Shown: positions 546 through 60,626 of the stretch, piece by piece
How the letters are laid out: each line of letters starts with the position of its first letter
How positions within the stretch are numbered: position 1 is the first letter of the stretch
Source of the DNA: Tenacibaculum aquimarinum
Lineage (GTDB): Bacteria > Bacteroidota > Bacteroidia > Flavobacteriales > Flavobacteriaceae
Reading direction: 5' to 3'
Length of the DNA: 64,000 nt
Assembly (NCBI RefSeq): GCF_022478115.1
Contig: NZ_JAKGSC010000003.1
Coordinates: forward strand, 248,001-312,000
Program-made: the position numbers and the translations under genes
Notes under the pieces: generated by a model
Told to the model about the DNA's origin: nothing
The model's input: only the letters and a program-made list of their open reading frames with translations
Database searches by the model: none

Positions 546-617
546 TGTTTGCTAACTTAAATGATATGTCGAGTTTTAATTCTATATATCAGGAGTTAGC
601 GAAGTTACCCAAAAATA
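546..617 (-). repeat. Structured repeat A, copy 1 (immediately upstream of LRR gene)
   Basis: Two nested inverted repeats form a hairpin. The outer stem is GCTAACT at 551-557 with AGTTAGC at 594-600. The inner stem is TGATATGT at 562-569 with ATATATCA at 584-591. The loop contains the octamer ATTAAAAC (minus strand). The 23 bases at 595-617, read on the minus strand, are identical to 33105-33127 in front of another exported-protein gene, and begin with TATTTTTG, a possible -7 promoter box. It could be a regulatory leader or a mobile-cassette boundary. Confidence 0.7.
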
Positions 618-642
618 AGTTTAGAATCAAACCAAATTTAAA

Positions 643-14300: not shown

Positions 14301-14363
14301 TTTCGCTAACTTACGCTGATATGTGTCGTTTTAATGACTTATATCAGTCGTTAGCGAAGTTCG
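14301..14363 (-). repeat. Structured repeat A, copy 2 (no gene attached)
   Basis: The outer stem TTCGCTAAC (14302-14310) pairs with GTTAGCGAA (14350-14358), nine bases, and the inner stem CTGATAT (14316-14322) with ATATCAG (14341-14347). The loop carries ATTAAAAC on the minus strand, as in copies 1 and 3. Unlike those copies it has no open frame after it: it is wedged between the kdgK terminator and the thioesterase gene. Confidence 0.7.
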
Positions 14364-33037: not shown

Positions 33038-33104
33038 TTTTTTTGAGAATTTATCTTAAGTGGAAGTTAAGGAGTTGTAGTGAAACTTAGTTTGACTCTA
33101 AACA

Positions 33105-33182
33105 TATTTTTGGGTAACTTCGCTAACGTTGAATATCCACAATTAAAACAATGGATATTCTTTTACATTACCTGCAAGCTGA
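33105..33182 (+). repeat. Structured repeat A, copy 3 (immediately upstream of lipoprotein gene)
   Basis: The first 23 bases (33105-33127) are identical to the reverse complement of 595-617. The inner stem is GAATATCCA (33131-33139) with TGGATATTC (33152-33160), nine bases. The loop holds ATTAAAAC (33142-33149). GGTAA (33113-33117) with TTACC (33168-33172) makes an outer stem, and CTGCAAGCTG follows just before the gene. The -7-like box TATTTTTG is at 33105-33112. The gene begins at 33198. Confidence 0.7.
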
Positions 33183-33197
33183 AAAAAAACATTGAGA

Positions 33198-33776
33198 ATG
33201 ACAAAAAACATTACACTTCTGATTTTAATTTTCATTATCTCAAGTTGCTCTGCGCAAGAAAATTTAAAAGACTTTTATTATCCATTTTCAAATAAAACAG
33301 AAACCAAAGTTTATAAATACGTGGATAAAAACGACTCGACAAAAATTGAGTATTGGAAAGTGACATCAAATCCGAAAACAAATGAATTGAAAACAGTTTC
33401 TTACGATTCTGACTTTAATATTTATAACATGTTTGACGAGATTATAACAGAAAATGGAGCTGAATTAACAGCTTACTCTGACTTCGAAATGAATGATAAA
33501 GAAGAAAGAAAAGAAATCAAAGCAAAGGTAATTGACAAAGACGTTTACAAATGGAATGGAGATAAAGAGTACATATATTCTGTTAAATATATAAATAAAT
33601 ATGGTCGCTTCGATTTTAAAAAGAAAAGAGCGGAATCTGGAATTGAAAATATTACTGTAAATGGAAAGGAATATGAAGCTGTGAAATATAGAGACGACTA
33701 TATGATTTTAGCACTAGACCACGATGTTGAGCAAAGATTTTATCAAGATACATTTTATGTAAAAGCCAGCAGGTAA
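33198..33776 (+). CDS. Lipoprotein of unknown function, bracketed by structured repeats
   Basis: A 192-residue lipoprotein: MTKNITLLILIFIISSCSAQ has the lipobox ISSC with Cys17. The remainder is rich in Lys, Glu, Asp and Tyr (NKTETKVYKYVDKNDSTKIE, WKVTSNPKTNELKTVSYDSD) with no domain I recognise. It stands alone on its strand, unlike the packed genes around it, between repeat A copy 3 and hairpin B, in the gap between the DUF3124 gene and the rpsA promoter. TTG 33192 is an alternative start but ATG 33198 gives the better signal. The context suggests an accessory gene, possibly acquired. Confidence 0.75.
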   Translation: MTKNITLLILIFIISSCSAQENLKDFYYPFSNKTETKVYKYVDKNDSTKIEYWKVTSNPKTNELKTVSYDSDFNIYNMFDEIITENGAELTAYSDFEMNDKEERKEIKAKVIDKDVYKWNGDKEYIYSVKYINKYGRFDFKKKRAESGIENITVNGKEYEAVKYRDDYMILALDHDVEQRFYQDTFYVKASR

Positions 33777-33897
33777 CACTGTATATAATTTATTGCTTGG
33801 TTCTAGTCTACTTACGAAAATCCTCGTGGATTTTCTATTCGGTTTTTATTTACTAAATAAGTTGCGTAACCAAGCAACAGAGCATACACAAACCCTT
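33777..33897. repeat. Long imperfect hairpin B at the 3' end of the lipoprotein gene
   Basis: TTGCTTGGTT (33793-33802) pairs with AACCAAGCAA (33868-33877), ten bases. ACTTA (33810-33814) pairs with TAAGT (33858-33862). The internal hairpin GAAAATCC (33816-33823) pairs with GGATTTTC (33828-33835) round a TCGT loop. Outside the ten-base stem the arms stay partly complementary (GTATATAAT against GCATACACA). It begins at the stop codon of the lipoprotein gene. The 33777-34095 gap otherwise holds only the rpsA promoter and leader. Confidence 0.75.
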
Positions 33898-33943
33898 CAA
33901 CAAGCCTTCATTTTTAGACATTAACAAACTCCTTAAAAATCAA

Positions 33944-60472: not shown

Positions 60473-60626
60473 TTTTTAATTTTAAAAATATTATTTTTTC
60501 TTTATTCTTTTCTTCATAAATAACAGTCAATGTTTTGAGAATATTCACAGTTTTAATTGTTAATATTCAACATTAAGCGAATTTAGTGTTTTTTTTTTGA
60601 GAGAAAGGTAAGTAAACTAAATAGGG

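Follow-up and report, generated by a model that had tools for sequence, protein, structure and literature searches.

The window, a stretch of 64,000 nucleotides from Tenacibaculum aquimarinum, carries between a DUF3124 gene and rpsA a lipoprotein ORF of 192 amino acids, listed with a TTG start at 33192, and two hairpin elements, A in front of the gene and B behind it (Table 1). Direct reading of the sequence confirmed the ORF, both hairpins and the coordinates given for them in an earlier note on this DNA. The arms of A match exactly at nine of nine positions (GAATATCCA at 33131-33139 and TGGATATTC at 33152-33160), and matches within the same genome place the extent of the A family in the window at 33083 to about 33170. 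Hairpin B, as read directly from the sequence, combines an outer stem (TTGCTTGGTT at 33793-33802, AACCAAGCAA at 33868-33877) with an inner stem (GAAAATCC at 33816-33823, GGATTTTC at 33828-33835). The fold of B reaches -28.8 kcal/mol in comparison to -16.0 (SD 3.0) for shuffled sequences (z -4.27, with none of 200 shuffles as stable), and the fold of A alone is not unusual (z -1.34, with 24 of 200 shuffles as stable). In the window region only sub-threshold Rfam matches were found, none over the gathering score, and no Pfam family matched the lipoprotein over its cut-off. The Bacteroidota promoter consensus needs a spacing wider than 10 nt between its boxes. The TTTG and TATTTTTG boxes of A lie 10 nt apart, too close for this consensus, and no promoter is claimed for A. 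The promoter-like box proposed earlier was not confirmed.

Table 1. Features of the window, in order of position.
Feature	Position	Strand	Basis or remarks
Occupied copy of A (L299)	563..638	-	736-bp cassette off the low end of the window, ending ...CACG|TTAGCGAA
Empty copy of A	14319..14361	-	arms directly followed by ...GTAAG|TTAGCGAAA
Element A, forming the left part of a scattered acceptor site	33083..33167	+	R''-like TTCGCTAAC, covarying arms GAATAT/ATATTC, end ...TTTTACA|
Gene cassette, 728 bp, TTACCTGC to the end of attC	33168..33895	+	R'' GCAGGTAAC is the reverse complement of the start; left edge is the end of the A family
Cassette start TTACCTGC	33168..33175	+	reverse complement of GCAGGTAA at 33769-33776
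Lipoprotein gene, cassette cargo	33198..33776	+	ORF list; relatives in 13 of 166 genus genomes
Hairpin B, attC-type site	33769..33895	+	fold; match to model R1; covarying L box
Target-side flank past the right junction	33896..33907	+	reads TTCAACAAGCCT; an intact site would read TTAGCGAA
Copy of A, state unassigned	60538..60585	-	GTTAGCGA 459 nt downstream; no B-type attC found

Hairpin B has the organization of an attC-type site, namely R and L boxes within an imperfect hairpin whose stem covaries. Its R'' box (33769-33777) overlaps the stop codon of the lipoprotein ORF, which corrects the edge given earlier; L'' follows from 33780, and the other side of the hairpin contains L' (33884-33889) and a degenerate right core, CCC|TT. 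A covariance model, R1, was built on 32 B-type sites and matches the B of the window with 119.3 bits (4.4e-21). One pair in the L box is GC in 16, AU in 12 and GU in three of 32 sites, and both-side changes are seen in three of 10 consensus pairs. Canonical attC sites follow the consensus RYYYAAC in R'' and GTTRRRY in R'. The window departs from this consensus, with R'' reading AGGTAAC and the right core CCC|TT, and the members of arrays vary.

Should cassettes circularize and recombine at G|TT, each site would have to carry, ahead of its AAC, a sequence complementary to the start of its own cassette, a start that is found past the previous site. This rule was examined in arrays comprising 192 sites, of which R'' was recognizable in 155 (37 without) and GTT in 180, and pairs were dropped if R'' or GTT was missing or if the sites were more than 4 kb apart. 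Among the resulting 126 neighboring pairs, which are not all independent as they come from only four genus genomes and include some cassettes that are near copies, R'' complements the start of its own cassette at 98, 93, 95, 89, 93, 94 and 75% across seven positions, in comparison to 53, 38, 43, 35, 39, 33 and 34% for shuffled starts and 51, 43, 50, 42, 43, 32 and 36% for the start of the next cassette. The complementarity reaches 9-10 bases. For single sites in L004, L006 and L020, R'' is present and no cassette start was found within the short flank. In the window, R'' finds its complement TTACCTGC at 33168, which defines the cassette as 33168-33895, with TT as its first bases and C as its last, and in a circular form of the cassette this start would complete the attC. 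The ends had previously been described as not fitting the canonical attC consensus, which is correct for R'' (not RYYYAAC) but overlooks that the logic of attC sites is obeyed, with R'' complementing its own cassette start.

Sites of this type are widespread. A 151-base query around B found it in 34 of 36 genus genomes and in one of 23 genomes outside the genus, and the covariance model, applied across the Flavobacteriaceae as the earlier note had proposed, matched in 166 of 199 family genomes. In a sample of the phylum, the model matched in 31 of 198 genomes, namely 11 of 19 from the family and 20 of 179 others, as counted among the matches listed. Same-strand arrays are common in the fetched stretches of four genomes (G000, which is the window's own, G013, G016 and G021), with sites mostly 0.4-3 kb apart. 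The window's own genome has 54 model matches at E up to 0.01, and 24 of these (with 25 on contig C10) form a long same-strand array at C10:76064-100070 (L041, L042). A motif search of C10:76000-115000 found no integrase of the type described below. Within this array, at 84581-85060, lies a second DUF3124 gene, 40% identical to the first, suggesting that DUF3124 may itself travel as a cassette. In G013, an array of about 100 kb (C1:2954000-3055000, fetched in part, without its middle) contains attC sites that fall by score into two or more subfamilies and is headed by an integrase at 3055424-3056215. An attC-like family starting AACAATGTATAACCGCAATTACGG also recurs as a cassette end (L135, and the named loci L182, L193 and L200). 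In a phage collection, blastn with hairpin B gave no match; in Polaribacter phage P12002L, model R1 matched moderately at two places (55.3 and 52.7 bits) and more weakly at others, and in L358:31118-39244 of this phage one match of moderate score and several weak ones fall among methyltransferase genes or close to them. According to the accessible text of one study, attC sites, which may or may not be the R1 matches of P12002L, have been tried with IntI1 and one recombined (PMC9892861).

The left edge of the window cassette coincides with the end of the A family. Element A has 17 matches in the window's own genome, and 19 distinct copies were found in the stretches of that genome that were examined (21 rows, with two copies seen twice). 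Within the genus it occurs in 46 of 97 genomes. Of 61 anchored copies from several genus genomes, 44 have arms that pair at six of six positions, in comparison to 3% in the control, and the arms occur in five sequence versions; copy number and covariation thus support A more strongly than its fold does. An empty copy has the layout TTCGCTAAC-nnn-arm-loop-arm-...|TTAGCGAA, from which it follows that its own outer boxes (TTCGCTAAC/GTTAGCGAA) pair and that A is itself a small hairpin. These outer boxes are near-constant among copies. While A sits outside arrays, it is structured like a short attC.

Three of the 19 copies are empty, and in nine a cassette interrupts the site exactly at N|TTAGCGA, so that |TTAGCGA directly follows the attC. 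In a tenth occupied copy, L290, the A box is a variant (TTAGCTAAC), the right half (GTTAGCTAA) matches it, and the cassette follows the R'' rule. Three further copies (that of the window, L046 and L293) are occupied with an altered right half, and three (L289, L296 and L300) were classed as neither empty nor occupied. In the 12 occupied copies that were measured, with L290 left out and the attC search confined to the strand of A, the inserts span 566-1252 bp in the orientation of A, and 10 contain a single ORF of at least 50 amino acids on the A strand. Four of 10 cargo proteins scanned have a Pfam match over its cut-off: Fib_succ_major, a leucine-rich repeat, DUF6090 and a glyoxalase. In the window copy, the right core reads C|TT where G|TT is expected and the right half of A is not TTAGCGAA. 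The CCC|TT right core is shared with L046. With C replacing G before TT and the right half of A absent, the window cassette may be stranded.

Comparison with a sister genome, G187, reveals some of these sites in the empty state. The two genomes are 99% identical at rpsA and 88-94% identical in blocks of the fetched stretch, and G187 is empty at two of the nine places where a cassette splits A in the window's genome. In the first of these clean pairs, a 593-bp insert (L043) corresponds to an uninterrupted site in G187 (L332); in the second, a 679-bp insert (L295) corresponds to an empty site (L320) that reads ACAG|TT, as opposed to ACA|TT at the left edge of the insert. The genomes also differ at a further five orthologous A sites (L288, L290, L297, L299 and L300), where the content of G187 is not clearly a cassette. 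At the window locus itself, G187 has DUF3124, part of A, an unrelated gene of 204 amino acids and rpsA, with neither the lipoprotein nor B, and its homology to the window picks up again at 33891. The comparison of the DUF3124-rpsA interval suggested earlier therefore found a different gene in a close relative, making the locus variable rather than a clean empty-site pair. This comparison was anchored on rpsA, as the DUF3124 orthologues gave no interval: the fetched flank of the 22 loci other than that of the window contained no rpsA. Among 30 rpsA loci, taken from 158 matching genomes, DUF3124 lies within the 1.5-kb flank only in G187 and in the window's own genome. G187 also has a small lipoprotein gene of 138 amino acids between UPF0029 and DUF3124 (L147:8352-8768) that is absent from the window, indicating that the interval neighboring the window locus is variable too.

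The cargo is likewise not a fixed gene of the genus. The earlier note would have abandoned the cassette reading had the same lipoprotein stood at the same place in all relatives; relatives of the gene were found in only 13 of 166 genus genomes, including its own. The closest, at 84% (G118), is also carried on a cassette, whose start and R'' (GCAGGTAAC) are those of the window cassette and whose attC is of a different type; the gene stands behind ...CCG|TTACCTGCAAGCTGAAC. Four relatives at 34-35% lie within B-type arrays. The copy in G151 (77%) is preceded by CCAG|TT and has an attC-like stretch at its end, and its failure to follow the R'' rule ruled it out as a clear cassette. No B-type attC was found at the relatives in G181 and G103 (74%). 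As far as can be judged from these sequences, the lipoprotein cargo moves, and the window cassette belongs to a widespread cassette system of the Flavobacteriaceae.

Lone cassettes such as that of the window could instead be one-way strays from arrays, with A serving as a common intergenic repeat and chance-favored secondary target, similar to attG. In the accessible text of two sources, insertion of cassettes at genomic attG sites is described for IntI (PMC12901181; PMC11023631, citing Loot et al. 2024), and the damaged right core of the window copy is what would be expected of a stranded cassette. However, nine cassettes break A at the same point, the near-constant outer boxes and covarying arms of A are unlike a bare target, and the 12 occupied copies that were measured look like single cassettes, leaving this explanation unlikely. 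Under the preferred explanation, the copies of A would be places of exchange rather than passive targets.

The candidate enzyme for this system is a XerA-like tyrosine recombinase of 380-400 amino acids. In many genomes, its gene is closely followed by a conserved attI-like site (for example, TATATTTGATTTGATATAACCAG|TT) and then by same-strand cassettes, an order conserved over many genera. One such integrase-attI-array unit is found on contig C5 of the window's own genome, and the window locus itself is a lone cassette. The attI-like motif TATAACnnGTT lies at most 110 nt from the integrase stop codon in 28 of 34 genus and family loci. Of 80 named loci, 66 contain the integrase gene by motif search, and 45 of these have the attI motif within 120 nt and 21 do not. 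An R'' for the first cassette follows within 3.5 kb in 24 of the 45 attI-bearing loci (at least two of them doubtful by eye), in comparison to 0.6 expected from shuffled hexamers; the other 21 gave none, in some cases owing to contig ends. The integrase has matches at E up to 1e-60 in 146 of 299 family genomes, where those below about 45% identity may be paralogues.

The best family model for this enzyme is NF040815 (XerA type; 223.9 bits, cut-off 220), a family already named "site-specific tyrosine recombinase/integron integrase" by NCBI. Its score of 206.9 bits with TIGR02249 (IntI) falls under the cut-off of 265, and none of 78 genus genomes has an IntI over that cut-off; since this search scores matched stretches, the flavobacterial enzyme appears in it in two pieces. 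Alignment to VchIntIA (2a3v) skips the additional domain of IntI. Between GKGxKDR and HxLRH, the 20 flavobacterial rows (of 32) that allowed a measurement have 57-58 residues; the corresponding count is 99-101 in three IntI rows out of four and 53-66 in nine further Xer-like rows. In the accessible text of one paper, the IntI-specific additional domain near patch III is described as defining IntI integrases and as a requirement for integron recombination (PMC9668308). A small tree separates a flavobacterial clade (99/98) from an IntI clade (100/100), with the joins between clades unresolved and long branches meeting. The structure model of the integrase has a mean pLDDT of 80.6 and a pTM of only 0.53, and the best-matching structures are 4a8e and 5hxy, with archaeal Xer first and VchIntIA next. 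The first 85 or so residues (1-85 in P0001) form an N-terminal extension without a Pfam match, possibly a further DNA-binding domain.

It could be argued that a different enzyme, either of the XerC/XerD type or a phage or plasmid integrase acting in trans, moves the cassettes, with the XerA-like gene merely carried along next to attI, as the link between enzyme and sites is positional only and the recombinase falls outside the IntI clade of the small tree. Given the conserved order of integrase, attI and first cassette over many genera and the absence of a match over the IntI cut-off from all 78 genus genomes, this proposal appears quite improbable. Least credible is an ordinary locus, in which a lipoprotein gene has a leader hairpin and a terminator-like hairpin and strains differ by homologous recombination between repeats: both hairpins are intergenic, the fold of A alone is not significant, and Rfam and Pfam gave nothing over their thresholds, but exact junctions, the R'' rule in arrays and empty-site pairs are not expected from homologous recombination, and we give this account hardly any weight.

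The segment 33168-33895 is thus very likely, on sequence grounds, to be a single integron-type cassette of a putative XerA-like-integrase system, inserted in a pre-existing acceptor A between DUF3124 and rpsA. The earlier interpretation is partly supported by this outcome: its mobile single-gene cassette, resembling that of an integron, agrees with the different gene that G187 has in the interval and with the presence of B across the Flavobacteriaceae, whereas its leader hairpin inside the cassette was misplaced, as A was present as an acceptor before the cassette and lies outside it.

The closest known counterpart is the sedentary chromosomal integron with its IntI, attI and attC array. Shared features are an integrase gene with an adjacent attI-like site, long same-strand arrays of attC-delimited cassettes, attC-type hairpins, the G|TT exchange point, and R''/R' complementarity that is restored in the circle. 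Unlike IntI, the flavobacterial integrase is without the additional domain and has an N-terminal extension, its gene reads in the direction of the cassettes, and the complementarity of R'' is long, at 9-10 bases. A single attC outside integrons is termed SALIN. Insertion of single cassettes at N|TT outside the array resembles attG insertion and SALIN, but here cassettes enter a structured element that occurs repeatedly and has empty copies, both in the window's own genome and in the sister genome. The array on C10, with 24 model matches between 76 and 100 kb and no such integrase found, resembles a CALIN (a cluster of attC sites without an integrase), though the same genome has its integrase-attI-array unit elsewhere, on C5. 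The best model and structures of the enzyme are those of XerA and archaeal Xer recombinases, from which it differs in adjoining attI and cassette arrays and in its extra N-terminal part. No description of Flavobacteriaceae integrons with such an integrase was found in the accessible literature, in which subscription journals and preprints are thinly covered, making this weak evidence.

In the mechanism we propose, the XerA-like integrase encoded beside the attI-like site would be the enzyme of the system, and its substrate would be folded single-stranded DNA. It would recognize the folded attC through the R''/R' and L''/L' boxes, join cassettes at N|TT, and deliver them to two kinds of place, the array that follows attI and, as single cassettes, the scattered A sites. 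By extension, though with considerably more reserve than for the window cassette itself, we favor a distributed integron in the Flavobacteriaceae, in which a XerA-type integrase without the IntI domain would serve both the attI array and scattered hairpin acceptors, so that single cassettes would be swapped in and out at about 20 positions on the chromosome, which may each provide a distinct expression context.

A widespread system with the site logic of integrons and no IntI domain would, if true, show that folded attC sites can be recombined by a further route, and it might account for the scarcity of Bacteroidetes integrons in IntI-based surveys. In the available portions of the literature, Bacteroidota are listed without detail among the phyla with integrons (PMC8618304). 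IntegronFinder 2.0 reports that its earlier study had yielded only In0 elements and adds a single complete integron, in Salinibacter ruber (PMC9024848). For the organisms themselves, scattered acceptor sites would make the insertion of cassettes outside arrays a regular part of the system.
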